From positions 1 through 20,827 of IMG/VR virus record IMGVR_UViG_3300028592_000089: a DNA stretch of 20,827 nt. One strand, written 5' to 3'. The position numbers were made by a program, and so were the translations under genes. The notes below the pieces were generated by a model. It worked only from the letters and a program-made list of their open reading frames with translations. It did not search any database and was not told the DNA's origin. Within the stretch, counting starts at the first letter, position 1; the number at the start of each line of letters is the position of its first letter. Positions 2,101 through 20,809 of this stretch are shown here, in pieces. The DNA comes from a virus.

Positions 2101-3516
2101 TTATTGGCCCTTCCAGAAGTCATCAGCAGCCTTGTTGAAGTCGGCCGGGCTGGGGAGCTTCGGCGCGCCGACGTCGAGGATGCCCGTGGGGGCGCCCATC
2201 GTCTTGCTGTCGCGGGTTGCCGTGGCGTTGTTGGCCGCAGCCTTCATGCCAGCCGCAGCCGTGAAGAGCGTGGCGCAGCCCGCGCAGTCCATGCTCAGCA
2301 GATCCACGGCGTTGCCACCGTTGGCAGCGAGCAGCATGACCGCGCCTTCGGGAGTGGCGCCGAAGGCATCGAGCACCTTGCGGCGCACGTTGCACATGCG
2401 GTCCACGGTGGCGGCGCGCGTGATGGCAGCGTCGAAGGTCGGCACCTTGAAGCCAGGCTGCAGGATCTCGGCCTGGCTGGCGAGTGCCGTGTAGCTCGTG
2501 GCGAGTGCCGCGCTGTCGCCGGTGGAGGCCTTGGCTTTCTTGCGCTTGCCGCCCTTGCCGTCGTCTTCCATCTCGTCGTCGTCCTCTTCGGTCGCCGCGT
2601 CGATGGTCTTGCCGGCCTTGAGCAGGGCCTTGATCTCTTCGATGCCGCCTTCGAGCTTCACGAAGCGCTCCTCGGTGGCAGCGGCGTCCAGGGTCTTGGC
2701 GTTGCCTTCGTTGGCGGGGCCGCCGTAGTTGTGCACGTGGACATGCGTGGCCAGGCCGCCGTCTTCTTCGCCCTCACCTTCGAGGGCTTCGAGTTCGGCC
2801 TGGGCATCACGCACCTTCTGGCGCGCGGCTTCTTTGCTGGCTTCGTCGACGAGTTGAACGCGCGCATTGCGCAGGGGAGTACGGGATGCCATGGGAGTTT
2901 CCTTTAGTGGCGTGGGTGGAACAAAGAAAGCGTTGTCGCCGATTGCGCAGCGAGGACCACAGCGGCCTTTTTCGACCAGTGCGATGTGGTTGCCGATGAT
3001 GTTGGATTGACGGCCGAAGCCATCACCGAGATCGATGTAGTCGGCGTCGTAGCCGGCGCTAACTTCGATCTTGCCCTTGTCGATGGCCTCGATAAGAGCC
3101 TTGTTGGTCACGACGAGATCCGCGAGGAGCACGTCCTGATCGTCGCCCGAGCCCTGACGTACGTTGATGGCGAAGCCACCGGCGATGCCATTCCAGTTGA
3201 GCGGCGTCACGTCGTCGGGCGGATGGTCGTTCGTCAGCGCTGCTGCGTTGAAGCTCGACATCGTCAGGGGGTTGAAGAGGTCTTCGGTCTTGCGCTCGAT
3301 GTAGACGATGCCATTGGCACCGGGCTTCACCGGCACTTCACCGGGGCCATAGAGGAGCCAACCACTCCGGGCAATGGGGACGGCCGTGCACAGCAGATTG
3401 CCGTTGGGCAAGAGCTGGCGGTTGGGGCCGATCTGGTGGACGGTGTGCACCGCCATCACTTTCTCTTGTGTTGGCGGCCCACGGTCGAGGGTCGCACGTC
3501 GAATAGGGGTCTTCAC
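2101..3516 (-). CDS. DUF2213 prohead protease fused to scaffold-like C-terminus
   Basis: A GTG at 3516 with a very strong AGGAGG five bases upstream is the most likely start, giving 471 residues; the longer open frame extends into the head-fibre gene. Residues about 60-195 match the DUF2213 type of phage maturation protease, with candidate catalytic His98 (in LTNDHPPDD), Ser153 (in IEVSAGYDADYI) and His177 (in GNHIALVEKGRCG). Residues 215-250 are a charged coiled coil. An acidic/basic linker at about 310-330 leads to an Ala-rich C-terminal domain, as expected for a scaffold. Such proteins guide prohead assembly and then cleave head proteins. They may act on the leaders of the two downstream capsid proteins. 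Confidence 0.75.
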   Translation of the reverse strand: MKTPIRRATLDRGPPTQEKVMAVHTVHQIGPNRQLLPNGNLLCTAVPIARSGWLLYGPGEVPVKPGANGIVYIERKTEDLFNPLTMSSFNAAALTNDHPPDDVTPLNWNGIAGGFAINVRQGSGDDQDVLLADLVVTNKALIEAIDKGKIEVSAGYDADYIDLGDGFGRQSNIIGNHIALVEKGRCGPRCAIGDNAFFVPPTPLKETPMASRTPLRNARVQLVDEASKEAARQKVRDAQAELEALEGEGEEDGGLATHVHVHNYGGPANEGNAKTLDAAATEERFVKLEGGIEEIKALLKAGKTIDAATEEDDDEMEDDGKGGKRKKAKASTGDSAALATSYTALASQAEILQPGFKVPTFDAAITRAATVDRMCNVRRKVLDAFGATPEGAVMLLAANGGNAVDLLSMDCAGCATLFTAAAGMKAAANNATATRDSKTMGAPTGILDVGAPKLPSPADFNKAADDFWKGQ

Positions 3517-15376: not shown

Positions 15377-15877
15377 TTAGTAAAACCATGAGGCGCTGTT
15401 CGCGCCGTGTTCGCTAACCTCGACTTCTGCGCAGTGCAGATACTCGGGGGGCACGATCTGAGCCTGGCGCAGGCCCGCGAGATAGCTCACCATGAGCCAG
15501 TCGTTCACCATGACGCCGATGTACTCAGAGAAGCCTTCGCACCCCGTCTTGGGAAGAATGCGCAGATCGATGAGGCCCTTGTCATTGAGCGCCTCGAACG
15601 CGGCCAGCTCGGGATCATCGCGAGCCACCAGCGTCTTGTGGTCGAACATGTCTTCGAGCCGCTGCTTGATCGGCTTCAGGGCCCCGAAGTCGACCACCCA
15701 GTTGCGGCTGTCGAGGGTCGTAGACTTGAAGACGAGCTTCACAGCCAGCGCGTAGCCATGCAGCTTGTTGCAATGGCTTGTGGCTCGCCACTGGCGGAAC
15801 GTGGCCGAAAGGCCCACGTTATGCCCGTAGGTCTTCGTGCTCTGGTGAGCGAAGTGGAGGCTTGGGTCTTTGTTCAT
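15377..15877 (-). CDS. QueD-like protein (6-carboxytetrahydropterin synthase family) with altered zinc site
   Basis: The 166-residue protein aligns by eye with QueD/6-pyruvoyl-tetrahydropterin synthases: SHCNKLHGYALAVKLVF, WVVDFGALKPIK, FDHKTLV and VSEHGANSASWFY. Catalytic candidates Cys36, Asp79-His80 and Glu156 are kept. Of the three zinc histidines in E. coli QueD, only one (His40) is clear. The AAH position reads ATF (Phe27) and HGH reads HGY (Tyr42). QueD makes the pterin precursor of queuosine and 7-deazaguanine bases, and phages use that pathway for DNA or tRNA modification. No QueE, QueC or DpdA homologue is in this window. It overlaps the P-loop gene by 4 bases. Confidence 0.72.
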   Translation of the reverse strand: MNKDPSLHFAHQSTKTYGHNVGLSATFRQWRATSHCNKLHGYALAVKLVFKSTTLDSRNWVVDFGALKPIKQRLEDMFDHKTLVARDDPELAAFEALNDKGLIDLRILPKTGCEGFSEYIGVMVNDWLMVSYLAGLRQAQIVPPEYLHCAEVEVSEHGANSASWFY

Positions 15878-16347: not shown

Positions 16348-17388
16348 TCAGACCTCGGCGGCGCTCAGCAGCTTCATGGCCTGCTGTTTGAAGTTGGCGC
16401 CACGCCCGAAGAAGGCGCTATCCAGGCGTGTGTCGTCCGTGCGGCCCATGGCGTGGTCGACGTACTGCGTCACGGCATTGAGGAGGCCCCAGCGCGTGCC
16501 CTTGGCCGTGCGCATCTCGGAGCCCATGCCCGCGCCCTGGAAGAGATCCAACACGCCGGTCACCACGCGCGAGTCGTCGGCTTCCATTTCCTTGCTCAGA
16601 TTAGCCAGGCTGCCCATCCAGGCGAGGCTGCTGATCTCGGCCTTCTTGGCTTCGCGCTGAGGATCGAGGATGCGCGCCAGGACATCCCGGGCTTCGTCGA
16701 GCTTGATGGGAGTCTCAGCCATCTCGTTAGCCTTCGCCATGAAGAGCTTGAAGCTGTCCACGCTCACGCCCAACGTGCGGCGCACGGCATCGGCGTCGAA
16801 AACCTGGCGGTGGCTGATGCGCACGCTCTTGGCGTTAGCATCGTTGAGCGCGATGGCCAGGGTGTTGGCACAGACGACGCGAACTGCGGTCAGCATGGCC
16901 GTCGTCTTCATGGAGCCGTCCATGCTCGTAGCAAGCAGGAGGTTCTGCATCACCTCGTCGCCGCCCTTCTTGCTGCCCACGATCTGACCTTCGCCATTGC
17001 TTGCCATGGCCCAGAGCTTGCGGCCACCGCGGAGCGTGCCCGCCGTGTGGATGTGCCAGCCACCGCTCTCCGTCATGTCGCGGAAGAACTCGAGGACGTC
17101 GGCGGGCTGCACGATCTGGTAGTTAGCGCCCACGATAGCGAGGGGCTCCTGCGTGTCGCTGCGGATGAGGCCCTTGTAGTCCTCGAAAACGGTGGCCCCA
17201 GCGCCGATGCCTGGGTGGACCATGCTTGGGGTGCCCTGGACAGCGCTCCAATCCATGCCCGCCTCCTTGGCCCAGATACCGAGGCTTGCGCCCTTGGTGA
17301 CGCGCTGTCCCAGCTTGTGCCACGGAGTTTCACCGACGAACGCCATTTCGGCGCGGCCATTTGCTCTCAAGGTAAGTTCGTGTGCCAT
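16348..17388 (-). CDS. DUF932 phage/plasmid-type protein
   Basis: The 346-residue protein matches the DUF932 family, widespread on phages and plasmids and without an established biochemical role. Recognisable parts are the N-terminal TPWHKLGQRV, the core FRDMTESGGWHIHTAGTLRG and GGRKLWAMA, then TAVRVVCANTLAIAL and SVRISHR, and the C-terminal WGLLNAVTQYVDHAMGR. The ATG at 17388 has AAGGAG eight bases upstream. It is the second gene of an operon driven from the repeat promoter at 17694, with a 20-bp palindrome in the gap before it. A role in replication or early takeover is often assumed for such proteins but is not shown here. Confidence 0.88.
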   Translation of the reverse strand: MAHELTLRANGRAEMAFVGETPWHKLGQRVTKGASLGIWAKEAGMDWSAVQGTPSMVHPGIGAGATVFEDYKGLIRSDTQEPLAIVGANYQIVQPADVLEFFRDMTESGGWHIHTAGTLRGGRKLWAMASNGEGQIVGSKKGGDEVMQNLLLATSMDGSMKTTAMLTAVRVVCANTLAIALNDANAKSVRISHRQVFDADAVRRTLGVSVDSFKLFMAKANEMAETPIKLDEARDVLARILDPQREAKKAEISSLAWMGSLANLSKEMEADDSRVVTGVLDLFQGAGMGSEMRTAKGTRWGLLNAVTQYVDHAMGRTDDTRLDSAFFGRGANFKQQAMKLLSAAEV

Positions 17389-17435
17389 TCTTTAAGCTCC
17401 TTAGGTGTTGAAGGGCATGAGCGACGTTGCTCCAC

Positions 17436-17455
17436 TAGCGCTGCGCGCAGCGCTA
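17436..17455. promoter_or_regulatory. 20-bp perfect palindrome upstream of the DUF932 gene
   Basis: TAGCGCTGCGCGCAGCGCTA is its own reverse complement with no spacer. It lies in the 78-base gap between the 76-residue gene and DUF932, upstream of the AAGGAG site. A spacerless perfect dyad suits a dimeric DNA-binding protein. In RNA it would form a stem with a tiny loop. No U-tract follows. Confidence 0.5.
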
Positions 17456-17466
17456 AGAGAGTTGGG

Positions 17467-17697
17467 TCATTCTTTCTCTAGGGCTTGCATGAACTTTCGG
17501 CCTGCCGCCCAGCAAACGCCGGCTGTGGCCTCCTTGTAACCGCATGCCACGGCAGCGGCGATGAAGTCAGCACGTGCCGTCGCTGTGCCCCAGGTGAGCC
17601 CAGCCACAGAGCGCAAGATGGGCGCCATGCGCAGGCCCTCTTCCTCGAAGGCCCTGATGTCTTCGATGAGCTGGGGAGTTGTGCGGGCTGCGTCCAT
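17467..17697 (-). CDS. Unknown 76-residue protein, probably leaderless mRNA
   Basis: The gene starts at an ATG (17697) that lies about seven bases after the predicted -10 element TAGAAT of the promoter repeat, so the transcript would begin at or next to the start codon. There is no Shine-Dalgarno. The peptide begins MDAARTTPQLIEDIRAFEEE and is mostly helical, with a Cys and Trp pair in the C-terminal GVCWAAGRKFMQALEKE. An ATG 32 bases upstream in another frame lies inside the promoter and is unlikely. No family is recognised. Confidence 0.6.
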   Translation of the reverse strand: MDAARTTPQLIEDIRAFEEEGLRMAPILRSVAGLTWGTATARADFIAAAVACGYKEATAGVCWAAGRKFMQALEKE

Positions 17698-17758
17698 GTG
17701 TCGATTCTAAAGACTTTATAAAGACCCATGCAACGGGTTTGTCGCCAAAAATTAAAAA
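17694..17758 (-). promoter_or_regulatory. Promoter repeat, copy A
   Basis: This 65-bp sequence is identical to 20010-20074. Read on the minus strand it starts with an AT-rich stretch (TTTTTAATTTTTGG, UP-element-like). It then has TTGCAT and, after 18 bases, TAGAAT, a fair sigma70 pair. The palindrome CTTTATAAAG lies in the spacer. The repeat ends at the ATG of the 76-residue gene. It immediately follows a terminator, as a promoter of a new unit should. A site for a phage-encoded polymerase or regulator is an alternative reading. Confidence 0.7.
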
Positions 17759-17773
17759 GAATTTGCGGACATG

Positions 17774-17793
17774 AAAAAACCCGCCGAAGCGGG
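17774..17793 (-). terminator. Strong intrinsic terminator with UUCG loop
   Basis: On the minus strand CCCGC-TTCG-GCGGG is followed by TTTTTTC. It begins 21 bases after the stop of the signal-peptide gene and ends just before promoter repeat copy A, so it closes the ParB unit. Confidence 0.9.
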
Positions 17794-17813
17794 CCCAGGT
17801 GGCCGTGGCATGT

Positions 17814-18251
17814 CTAGCGTCCCCAGCTCAGTACGTCCTTCACGGCATCGGCTGCCATTGCGTTGACGCTGCGCTCAGCATCCTTGACATCCATGCCCAC
17901 GCGGCTAATGAGGAAGTTGCGGATGGGAAGGCCGCACACAGAGGCGGTGAAGCTCTCCAGATGCTCGCGGCGCTTCATGCCCTCCCGCAGGCCTGCCACG
18001 GCTGCCGTATGCATGCACTTACTCGTGCGCTGGATGTGCTGCACCAGCAGAAGGCGATCCCCGGCCAGATCCTTGTCATAGGTGATGGGCTGCGCCTTGG
18101 CAGGCGGCACCAAAGAAACGAGCAGGGCGCCAAGGCCCAGGATCAGCAGGCGCCACAGGCAGGCCCGAATGAGGCCTGGGTGCTCTTGGCTGGGGGCGTG
18201 GCTACGGATGGCAATGGCGCCGCGCGCCGTGTGGAAGTAATGGAAGTTCAT
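17814..18251 (-). CDS. Unknown protein with signal peptide
   Basis: The ATG at 18251 overlaps the previous stop (ATGA), giving 145 residues. Residues about 29-54 (RACLWRLLILGLGALLVSLV then PPAKAQ) form a hydrophobic segment with an AKA-Q signal-peptidase-like site after an unusually long, basic N-region. The predicted exported part has about 90 residues with two cysteines (in SKCMHTAAV and SVCGLPIRN) that could form a disulphide. A periplasmic phage protein made from an early-type operon might act in superinfection exclusion or host envelope changes, but there is no direct evidence. Confidence 0.62.
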   Translation of the reverse strand: MNFHYFHTARGAIAIRSHAPSQEHPGLIRACLWRLLILGLGALLVSLVPPAKAQPITYDKDLAGDRLLLVQHIQRTSKCMHTAAVAGLREGMKRREHLESFTASVCGLPIRNFLISRVGMDVKDAERSVNAMAADAVKDVLSWGR

Positions 18252-18424
18252 GATGTTTCTTTCAAGGATTGTGCAATGGCGCCGAGCTGGAACCACTTCC
18301 AGTCCCTGGCAATCTGTGGGTTAACGTAGGTTCCCTTACGCGAGCGCTTCAGCCCGCAAGCGGCATTCTTGTTAGCCAGGCGCTCGAAGTCGGCGCGCAG
18401 CACCTCAGCGACATTAGGCTCCAT
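18248..18424 (-). CDS. Unknown 58-residue protein
   Basis: The ATG at 18424 has AGGAGG six bases upstream. It overlaps the preceding stop by 11 bases and the next start by 4. The peptide starts MEPNVAEVLRADFERLANKN and contains a basic GLKRSRKGTYVNPQIARDWKWF segment. The sequence pattern (short helix, then YVNPQIARDWKWFQLG) is often found in small phage proteins of unknown role. Confidence 0.7.
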   Translation of the reverse strand: MEPNVAEVLRADFERLANKNAACGLKRSRKGTYVNPQIARDWKWFQLGAIAQSLKETS

Positions 18425-18665
18425 TGGCGGCCTCCTGAGCCTTGAGCAAGCGCGCAGCGCCTTCAGCAACTTTCCTGCGCATCTCACCGTATCTGACCCC
18501 CTCCCTGTAGGCAGCCACGCTGCGCGGGGTGGTGTAGGGAAGAGGCAGGTCGTCGTTCGCCTCGCCGACCCGCATCCCCAGCCGATAGGGCGTGACCTTC
18601 ATCCCACGCTCCCGTATCGCAGCCTTGTGCCCATCAAAGGGCCCAGGCTTTTTCTGAGCGCCCAT
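18414..18665 (-). CDS. Unknown 83-residue basic protein
   Basis: The ATG at 18665 lies one base after the ParB-like stop, so translation is probably coupled; the upstream Shine-Dalgarno is weak. The product begins MGAQKKPGPFDGHKAAIRER. It has a Pro/Asp-rich middle and an Arg/Ala-rich C-terminal helix (RSVAAYREGVRYGEMRRKVA). No family is recognised. Confidence 0.68.
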   Translation of the reverse strand: MGAQKKPGPFDGHKAAIRERGMKVTPYRLGMRVGEANDDLPLPYTTPRSVAAYREGVRYGEMRRKVAEGAARLLKAQEAANGA

Positions 18666-18666
18666 G

Positions 18667-19683
18667 TCAGAAGTCCAGGCTGATGGCCTTCATGCCCGCC
18701 GCAGCCTTCAGGGCCTGCAGGGCGCCGAAGCTCGCGGCGAGGGCAAGGGCCTCGTCCTTGGCGATCCAGGCCGCCATATCGAACTCGAGCGGCTTGCCCG
18801 CGTCCTTGAGCTTCTCGGCCATGCCTTCGGCGAGCTTCTTGCCCATCTCGCTCAGCTCGGCATCGCTGAGAGCGCGGATCTTCAGCACGCGGCCCTTCTT
18901 CTCGGCTTTCTTGGCGCGGGCGTCTTGAATGGCAGCCTTCACCTTGTTCAGCTTGCCCTTGTCCTTGCCCGCCTCCACGGCAGCCTTCGTCAGCTCAGCC
19001 TGGACTTTCTTGTCCTTGCCGAAGCGGGCAATGGTCTTTGCCATCGTCTTCCCGATCGTGCCATCGGTAGCCGCCTTCACGAGGCTCTCATCGCCGTCGA
19101 GAAGGGCCATGATCTCCGTGACGTGCATGTGCGCCTTGCCCGTGGCCGCGCAGATCTGCTTAATCGTCATGCCCGAATCCTTCATGTCCTTGAAGGCATG
19201 CGCTTCTTCAATGGGCGTGAAGTTCTTGGCACCGTTCGCCACGTACATCTGGATGAGGCTCGTCACGTCATCCTGATCCTTGTCCACGATGACGACGAGC
19301 ACGCCTTCGGCGAAGGCCAAAGGATCCTTCTTGAGGATGCTCATGATGGCCGTGAGGCGGCGCTCACCATCGATCAGCTCGAAGTTCTTGACCTGGGCGC
19401 CCTCAGGGCCCTTGCCATCGTCGATGACCGTGGGGGCAATGCGCTTCACGCGCAGGGGCATGAGCAAGCCATTGGCCTTGATGCTCGCCGCGAGTTCTTC
19501 GAGGTCGCCGAAGTCGAAGCGCTTGTTCAGGCGTGCGCCGTCGGCCTTCAGCTTGGGCGTGATGGTGCGGGGGTCGGCGTAGAAGGCCGAAGAGCGCTTC
19601 ACGATGCCAGCGGCTTCCTTGCGGGCAGCAGGGGCGGAGGTGGCTTCAGCAGCTTGGGCGAAGGCGGCGGGGGTCGAGGTCAT
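18667..19683 (-). CDS. ParB/Spo0J N-domain protein
   Basis: The ATG at 19683 with AAGGAG six bases upstream gives 338 residues; the longer open frame lacks support. The ParB-like core has LEELAASIKANGLLMPLRVK (residues 61-80) and the GERR box in FELIDGERRLTAI (106-109). IEEAHAFKDMKDSGMTIKQI (158-177) leads into a probable helix-turn-helix with GKAHMHVTEIMALLD. The C-terminal 120 residues are Lys/Ala-rich helices, unlike the ParB dimer domain. ParB proteins are CTP-dependent DNA clamps in partition; phage relatives also act as regulators or nucleases. No ParA lies nearby, so partition is uncertain. Confidence 0.82.
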   Translation of the reverse strand: MTSTPAAFAQAAEATSAPAARKEAAGIVKRSSAFYADPRTITPKLKADGARLNKRFDFGDLEELAASIKANGLLMPLRVKRIAPTVIDDGKGPEGAQVKNFELIDGERRLTAIMSILKKDPLAFAEGVLVVIVDKDQDDVTSLIQMYVANGAKNFTPIEEAHAFKDMKDSGMTIKQICAATGKAHMHVTEIMALLDGDESLVKAATDGTIGKTMAKTIARFGKDKKVQAELTKAAVEAGKDKGKLNKVKAAIQDARAKKAEKKGRVLKIRALSDAELSEMGKKLAEGMAEKLKDAGKPLEFDMAAWIAKDEALALAASFGALQALKAAAGMKAISLDF

Positions 19684-19765
19684 AGAAAGCTCCTTGGTGA
19701 TTGAGAAAGGAAGGCCCGGAGAATACCGGCCAAGGCCCTCAGCGCGAGGGCTATGGTCGAGGCTC

Positions 19766-19969
19766 TCAGGCGCAGATCCAAACGTTGCACTCCACGGGGA
19801 AGTGGGCGCCCATGCAGGTCCGCATGCCATCATCCGTAGTGCGCACGTATTCGACGCCGTAGCCCTCTTCCGTGTAGCGGCTAACGCTTGTGATCTTGCC
19901 GCCTGAGCTGAAAACGTCGCCAACCTTCAGATCGGCGGCCTTGACTTGCTTGAGAGTTGCGGTGGTCAT
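19766..19969 (-). CDS. Unknown 67-residue protein, first gene of the ParB unit
   Basis: The ATG at 19969 has GGAG seven bases upstream and is preferred over the longer frame that runs through the promoter repeat. The peptide MTTATLKQVKAADLKVGDVF then SSGGKITSV-type strands and GYGVEYVRTTDDGMRTCMGA look like a small beta-barrel, similar in style to short phage proteins with an 'L-KVGD-F' motif. A 15-codon open frame ends on its start codon (ATGA). Confidence 0.7.
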   Translation of the reverse strand: MTTATLKQVKAADLKVGDVFSSGGKITSVSRYTEEGYGVEYVRTTDDGMRTCMGAHFPVECNVWICA

Positions 19970-20013
19970 CTTGAATCTCCAGTTGGGCGGCTTCGTCGAA
20001 GCGCTGAACCCAT
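19966..20013 (-). CDS. Possible leader peptide at the promoter repeat
   Basis: In copy B the ATG at the end of the repeat opens a 15-codon frame (MGSALRRSRPTGDSR) whose TGA overlaps the ATG of the next gene. The same ATG in copy A begins the 76-residue gene. If the transcript starts at this ATG, the short frame could be translated as a leaderless leader peptide. No further support is visible. Confidence 0.3.
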   Translation of the reverse strand: MGSALRRSRPTGDSR

Positions 20014-20074
20014 GTGTCGATTCTAAAGACTTTATAAAGACCCATGCAACGGGTTTGTCGCCAAAAATTAAAAA
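20010..20074 (-). promoter_or_regulatory. Promoter repeat, copy B
   Basis: This copy is identical to copy A over 65 bp, with divergence beginning immediately outside both ends. It precedes the ParB transcription unit. The elements are TTGCAT-18-TAGAAT with the CTTTATAAAG palindrome in the spacer and an AT-rich upstream part. Confidence 0.7.
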
Positions 20075-20090
20075 TATTTTCAGCGACGTC

Positions 20091-20115
20091 CCTGGGGCCT
20101 GCAATGGGCCCCAGG
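20091..20115 (-). terminator. Hairpin between the first gene and promoter copy B
   Basis: CCTGGGGCC and GGCCCCAGG form a perfect 9-bp stem with a 7-nt loop five bases after the stop of the first gene. The nearest T-rich stretch on the minus strand starts about 15 bases later, within the promoter's AT-rich part, so this is at best an imperfect terminator. Confidence 0.4.
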
Positions 20116-20119
20116 CCTC

Positions 20120-20809
20120 TTATATAGAGGTGCCGTTCGGCGAAGCCTTGCCCAGCTGGGCCGCCACGCGGTGGGCGAGGCCTGCGGCGAGGTATCCAGG
20201 GAACTCGGCATCGAAGATGGCGCGCACGTCATGGGCGACGTTCGCCACGAACTTCGGCGACACGGGAGCCCGCGTGTGTGCCGCCACTTGCTTGGCCCTG
20301 GCCACAACGAGATGGGCGAGCATTCGATACACGGCTTGGCGCTTCACCACGGTCGCGGCGGCAAGGCCACTGGAGGCCATGAAGTCGGCTACAGGGGCCC
20401 AGTTGTTAGAGGGACTTAGTACGCGCTTGAAGACGAGGGGGCCTTGCCCTGCCTCACCGCTGCCCCCGAAAGCTCTTGTGTAGGCCTCATAAACGCTTGT
20501 AGCCCACAGGTCGAGGTCACGGTCTGCCTTCCCCGTCAGCTTTTGGGCCTCCAAAGCCAAGTGGGCGAGGAGTTTCTTGCGGCCAGCTGCGGAGAGCATC
20601 TCAATTCCGCCGAGGAGCCACGTGAGCCGCTCCTCTTCATTCATTTCATTTTTTGTGTCGGGCTGAGGCGGGATGGTGTTAGGGGGGTGGTTGACCCCCT
20701 TTAGGGGGGCCACCCCCCTACCTCCCACCCCAGAGCCTTTGGTGGCAACCGCGGTAGCCTCACTAGCTTTAGTGCGGGCAGGCCTTGCGAAGCTAACGCG
20801 CTTGTTCAC
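20120..20809 (-). CDS. Unknown 229-residue protein
   Basis: A GTG at 20809 with AAGGAG six bases upstream begins the frame. The N-terminal 55 residues are low-complexity (Ala, Lys, Gly, Pro). Their DNA contains a nested G/C hairpin at 20680-20720. From residue 56 (MNEEERLTWLLGGIEMLSAA) the protein is well ordered and helical, with a basic C-terminal region. An alternative start at the ATG near 20644 lacks a ribosome-binding site. No family is recognised. Confidence 0.65.
   Translation of the reverse strand: MNKRVSFARPARTKASEATAVATKGSGVGGRGVAPLKGVNHPPNTIPPQPDTKNEMNEEERLTWLLGGIEMLSAAGRKKLLAHLALEAQKLTGKADRDLDLWATSVYEAYTRAFGGSGEAGQGPLVFKRVLSPSNNWAPVADFMASSGLAAATVVKRQAVYRMLAHLVVARAKQVAAHTRAPVSPKFVANVAHDVRAIFDAEFPGYLAAGLAHRVAAQLGKASPNGTSI
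20680..20720. repeat. Nested G/C-rich hairpin inside a coding region
   Basis: TAGGGGGGTGG (20680-20690) pairs perfectly with CCACCCCCCTA (20710-20720). The loop itself contains CCCCC-TTTA-GGGGGG. The reading frame is unbroken across it. Confidence 0.6.

Follow-up and report, generated by a model that had tools for sequence, protein, structure and literature searches.

What do two identical 65-bp sequences do in a phage genome, and what keeps them identical? The window analysed here, a stretch of 20,827 nt from an IMG/VR virus record, carries one sequence at 17694-17758 (copy A) and the other at 20010-20074 (copy B), about 2.3 kb apart. Sequence comparison confirmed the first-pass annotation that the two are identical and that the match breaks off right at both ends. 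The window is a fragment, 100% identical, of G001 (IMGVR_UViG_3300028590_000013), a 72-kb record with terminal overlap that was taken as a complete genome, and the 65-bp match is the longest exact repeat of that genome. The search for further copies that the annotation had proposed returned only these two in G001 at up to three mismatches, and both copies in the relatives. No copy in hosts or prophages was found among 84,980 bacterial and archaeal genomes. Rfam gave no match at gathering score in the window, and only chance-level matches at 17300-20200.

The repeats have the architecture of promoters

Sizeable conserved genes surround the repeat on the minus strand, and the predicted promoters read in that direction too. 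Block B runs from copy B through a 67-aa ORF, parB (18667-19683, minus strand; a ParB-family protein with an HTH_ParB domain), small ORFs and a conserved 144-aa ORF (17814-18248, minus strand; homologue ZHS_92) to a terminator with a UUCG loop. Copy A follows this terminator directly and is itself followed by a 76-aa ORF and the DUF932 gene (16348-17388, minus strand), the core of block A. Elsewhere in the window, a QueD-like gene was observed at 15377-15877; in Edwardsiella phage vB_EpM_ZHS (OM621816; hereafter ZHS), ZHS_65-67 are annotated as queuine tRNA-ribosyltransferase, GTP cyclohydrolase I and 7-cyano-7-deazaguanine synthase, and such queuosine/7-deazaguanine genes possibly serve DNA modification.

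On the minus strand, each cassette consists of an AT-rich tract, TTGCAT, 18 nt that include the palindrome CTTTATAAAG, TAGAAT and CGACACATGG. The -10 boxes TAGAAT are located at 17704-17709 (A) and 20020-20025 (B), and placing them at -12 to -7 gave predicted transcription starts at 17697 and 20013, the same positions as had been proposed from the first reading. The TTGCAT-18-TAGAAT pair reported there is present in both copies, but its -35 part (17728-17733 and 20044-20049, minus strand) is weaker than stated. Compared with sigma-70 boxes, the -10 matches at 5/6 positions with a spacer of 18, while TTGCAT matches TTGACA at only 3/6, which is why a strict promoter scan reports no pair. The TTGC of the -35 is retained in the window, ZHS and the relative G004 (L016), in the further lineage L035 it is not found at this spacing, and the -35 is weak in every lineage. 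TTAGAAT, followed by the start-site CAT, is without variation in the eight copies of these four lineages. The start bases predicted in ZHS are the A of CATGGGTTC and the A of CATCGCAAC (L004, about 13600 and 16303). A scan with a loose -10 pattern returned mainly unrelated contigs.

The sequences ahead of the cassettes also agreed with the first reading. The UUCG-loop hairpin before copy A is a true intrinsic terminator at 17796-17777 on the minus strand, with GGGCCCGCTTCGGCGGGTTT followed by more T, which closes the parB block; terminators at the matching position were found in ZHS, G004 and L035. The hairpin before copy B (20091-20115, minus strand) was confirmed, though no U-tract stands directly behind it on that strand; at this place L035 has a clear terminator. 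Across lineages, each copy combines the palindrome with a sigma-70-like -10 box, a weak -35 and AT-rich sequence upstream, mostly right after a terminator. We infer that the 65-bp repeats are promoters, transcription itself being predicted.

The promoter pair and its palindrome are conserved in six lineages

To place the repeats in context, we compared six lineages that carry the palindromic operator: the window phage (G001), ZHS with the almost identical G003, G004, L035, and two deeper relatives, L165 and L169, which were reached via DUF932. Both promoters were found at corresponding places in all of them, usually with one preceding the parB block and the other the DUF932 block. The first-pass annotation had counted copies in relatives that were not upstream of genes as evidence against its reading; in ZHS, G004, L035, L165 and L169 the copies lie directly upstream of gene blocks. 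In L165 (ParB 59% identical), two promoters with TCTTTATAAAGA precede a 126-aa ORF-parB block and a block leading to DUF932, respectively. In L169 (ParB 49% identical), two promoters with AATCTTTGTAAAGATT precede small genes and parB-DUF932, respectively, and beyond operator and -10 nothing recognisable is left of the cassette. L169 has two extra sites, one before another gene and one about 45 nt upstream of an HTH protein gene, in that gene's own promoter. Exact operator sites were absent in four lineages with ParB at 40-50% identity (G009, G010, G011 and G013). In the distant relative L171, the 14-bp unit GCACCCACCACCAT was observed to be repeated in a long tandem array upstream of DUF932, at about 2983-3130.

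The operator GGTCTTTATAAAGTCT lies in the promoter spacer at 17711-17726 (A) and 20027-20042 (B) on the minus strand, with the core palindrome at 17714-17723 and 20030-20039. The window contains TCTTTRTAAAG two times, where 0.01 occurrences would be expected. Thirteen sites from the six lineages gave the consensus A[A/G]TCTTTRTAAAGA[C/T]T, whose CTTT and AAAG arms are invariant except for one base; the operator in copy A of L035 is degenerate (CTATGTAAAG). Shuffled sequence yields practically no operator sites, and the number of exact matches in L165 and in L169 exceeded that in every shuffle. The same palindrome is therefore present in several promoters and conserved beyond background, down to 49% ParB identity and always within the spacer. 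A scan of the genomes for repeated longer palindromes yielded no candidate.

Since the pair is found at corresponding places in six lineages and has kept its palindrome and -10 although the neighbouring sequence diverged, the promoter pair is judged to be as old as the phage group. A palindrome at both promoters in each lineage is as expected for a shared regulator, as the first-pass annotation had suggested, and the predicted co-regulation of the two blocks is well supported by the comparison.

The two copies evolve in concert

The first-pass annotation had attributed the perfect identity to recent copying or strong constraint. Both appear to hold, with constraint acting on operator and -10, and copying, as concerted evolution, on the rest of the tract. 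Eight sites differ between the window phage and ZHS; at each of them both copies within a genome agree, and none differs strictly by locus. In L165, a 25-bp tract ahead of the operator is private to the two copies, and in L035 GGTGAAAATC together with a longer operator-to-(-10) distance is common to both. The copies of G004 are 75% identical to each other and show no recent homogenisation. Two observations identify B as the putative donor in the window. Copy A is of the B type at -56, -3 and +3, positions at which the A copies of ZHS and G004 have a different base in common, and the A-type leader CATCGCAACAAGGAGC that ZHS, G004 and L035 carry has been lost from copy A. We conclude from these patterns that the copies evolve in concert and that, in the window, B was copied onto A.

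Selection alone, with both sites tracking one co-evolving regulator and no recombination between them, would explain the constraint on the operator. It is an improbable account of the remainder of the tract, as the lineage-specific shared bases lie mostly outside operator and -10 (such as CCC versus GGT at -40 to -38, or the 25-bp tract of L165), and as copy A of the window is B-type at -56, -3 and +3 against the A copies of ZHS and G004. At the other extreme, the 65 bp of perfect identity and the B-type flanks of copy A, which show copying, could be the trace of a mere recent duplication, a scar of recombination or an attachment-like site at the borders of the parB block, with no regulatory meaning. 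We consider this very improbable, given that the pair occurs at corresponding places in six lineages, that palindrome and -10 are conserved amid diverged surroundings, and that the gene order around the pair is maintained. We found no description of concerted change of two phage promoters in the literature searched.

A common repressor is the favoured regulator

Our best explanation of the whole, to which we assign a probability of about 0.68, is that the copies are paired promoters with a shared operator for a phage repressor, the HTH protein being the likeliest, and that recombination has copied B onto A in the window. Under this model, two host sigma-70-type promoters would drive successive minus-strand blocks, small ORF-parB-...-144-aa ORF and small ORF-DUF932. 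The operator in the spacer would be bound by a dimeric DNA-binding protein of the phage, with the winged-HTH protein as the most likely and ParB as a less likely candidate; RNA polymerase would be blocked at both promoters, so that the two blocks would be shut off together. Recombination between the copies would keep them alike, in the window by copying B onto A.

Repression is favoured over activation because the distance between operator and -10 varies while the overlap with the spacer persists. From operator centre to -10 it is 9, 9, 9, 12, 10-11 and 11-13 nt in the respective lineages. A contact activator is normally intolerant of varied phase, and a repressor site allows it. If the palindrome were instead the target of an activator, or of a phage sigma-appropriation factor comparable to T4 MotA, that replaces the missing -35, the blocks would be turned on jointly, as genes of the delayed-early or middle class. 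The -35 that is weak in every lineage and has no strict sigma-70 match would fit such a factor, as would the fact that spacer plus -10 are the most conserved part; however, the range from 9 to 13 nt corresponds to about 140 degrees of helix, and a weak -35 can be offset by an AT-rich UP-like tract. We therefore regard activation as unlikely.

The preferred candidate for the repressor is the HTH protein (ZHS_85), whose gene lies just past the window's right end, at about 206-658 of G001 on the minus strand. A winged helix was predicted at high confidence over about residues 10-70, and the nearest structural matches, with weak E-values, were RacA, excisionase, BldC and gpNu1-type DNA-binding domains; the fold fits a terminase small subunit too. 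The L169 operator in the promoter of this gene suggests autoregulation. Only a partial site, TCTTTATCAGAA, is present in the HTH gene promoter of the window phage, ZHS and G004, and part of this site doubles as a -35 of the opposing promoter. A third operator, CTTTATCAG, in the divergent promoter region of these three phages was first rejected, since TATCAG can be read as the -35 (CTGATA) of the opposing promoter; it was readmitted as a possible degenerate operator site because L169 has a good site ahead of the same HTH gene. Two likely promoters of G001 were observed besides: at about 719 (minus strand), TCTTTATCAGAA lies between divergent promoters and resembles half the operator, and at about 6321 (plus strand), TCTTTATATAAT overlaps the -10 and also resembles half the operator.

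ParB (ZHS_89 in ZHS), encoded between the copies, might itself be the regulator and autoregulate its operon, like KorB-type ParB proteins. It is present in 6/6 operator-bearing lineages, in each of which one of the two promoters precedes parB. Yet ParB was found as well in lineages without the operator, its putative recognition helix differs among the window, L165 and L169, which have the same operator, and no KorB-type site TTTAGCSGCTAAA was found in three genomes; we hold this to be a rather doubtful reading, if a slightly less unlikely one than activation. The HTH gene is likewise present in the operator-less G009, G010 and G013. Neither protein is proven as the regulator, since both occur in lineages without the operator.

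The first genes behind the two promoters are unrelated

In the window, the 76-aa ORF behind copy A (17467-17697, minus strand) begins with an ATG whose A is the predicted +1, so copy A would give a leaderless mRNA; an in-frame ATG further on, with a GAGGG motif at 17628, is an alternative start. This ORF had no homologue outside this phage in the phage and viral collections searched. The 67-aa ORF behind copy B (19766-19969, minus strand) has a GGAG ribosome site. The nine proteins encoded first behind copies A and B in four lineages proved mutually unrelated on comparison, whereas parB, the 144-aa gene and the DUF932 gene are conserved. The edges of the exchange are sharp, with a conserved leader before each first ORF and a conserved hairpin segment after it, beginning at or next to the stop codon. 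No Pfam families were found in these proteins, and the sole convincing PHROGs match was that of the L035 protein behind copy B to phrog_32956 (unknown function). The first-gene positions were considered as an exchange hotspot, and no hotspot is claimed because, by our own count, 12 of the 31 small ZHS genes have no relatives in either G001 or G004, which places these positions within the background of small genes.

The homogenised operator promoters may still be docking points at which each block swaps its first gene, which would bring new small genes under the common repressor at once, with the leaderless gene of the window, fused to a borrowed start site, as a product; we put this forward as speculation.

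Conserved segments were also observed around these genes. The predicted 5' end of transcript B contains a hairpin (19985-20011, minus strand) that folds in four lineages with one two-sided compensatory change, thin support in that 135 of 500 shuffles reached it in the four sequences. A leader peptide, MGSALRRSRP, behind copy B was rejected, as the reading frame is not preserved and the changes agree with the hairpin instead. Between the 76-aa ORF and DUF932 (17419-17469, minus strand), four lineages conserve GACCCAACYCTC-hairpin-TGGRGCAACGTCG, in which CTCT/GGAG versus CCCT/GGGG and an altered hairpin suggest an RNA element ahead of DUF932; this segment has no Rfam match. A strongly conserved non-coding segment (GACCATAGCCCTCGCGCYGAGGGCCTTGGCCGG) lies between the 67-aa ORF and parB (about 19690-19768, minus strand) and is nearly identical in ZHS and L035.

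Comparison with known systems

Operators of phage repressors are often palindromes that overlap the promoter, with one operator common to several promoters. The pair described here resembles them in this respect and, in one lineage, in the apparent autoregulation of the candidate regulator, and differs in that this candidate has a winged helix of the Nu1/excisionase/MerR-like kind. Of the annotated ZHS genes, none was recognised as an integrase or a CI-like switch, and we know of no operator that matches the sequence.

Promoter early stem-loops (PeSLs, 'mobile regulatory cassettes') of T4-like phages (Arbiol 2010; Comeau 2014, via PMC4503421), as far as they are outlined there, likewise combine a terminator stem-loop with a host-type promoter, are repeated within a genome and are tied to small-gene exchange. 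In our phages a terminator stem-loop is similarly joined to a predicted host-type early promoter, the terminator preceding copy A in four lineages. Unlike the PeSLs of that outline, which stand at high copy density in T4-like phages, the cassette occurs in two copies per genome, whose positions are fixed and correspond between lineages, and the phage, at about 72 kb, is not of the T4 type and differs in gene content; the cassette has a palindromic operator, and its copies appear to evolve in concert. The first genes are unrelated in four lineages, as gene shuffling of the PeSL kind would have it, yet the background of small ZHS genes is similarly variable.

Start-associated sequences (SAS/ESAS) of cluster K mycobacteriophages are repeats conserved just upstream of phage genes; part of each is an inverted repeat, whose consensus varies by subcluster (PMC3203893). 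They occur in many copies at translation starts, with 17-bp inverted repeats, whereas here two copies are centred on promoters and the inverted repeat lies within the -35/-10 spacer. PeSLs and SAS/ESAS are the closest known systems, and by the tests run the promoter pair is a member of neither; it would be a compact case of regulatory DNA evolving in concert within a phage, and offers a defined regulon, a testable operator and a candidate regulator for a little-studied group of DNA phages that includes an isolated Edwardsiella phage.
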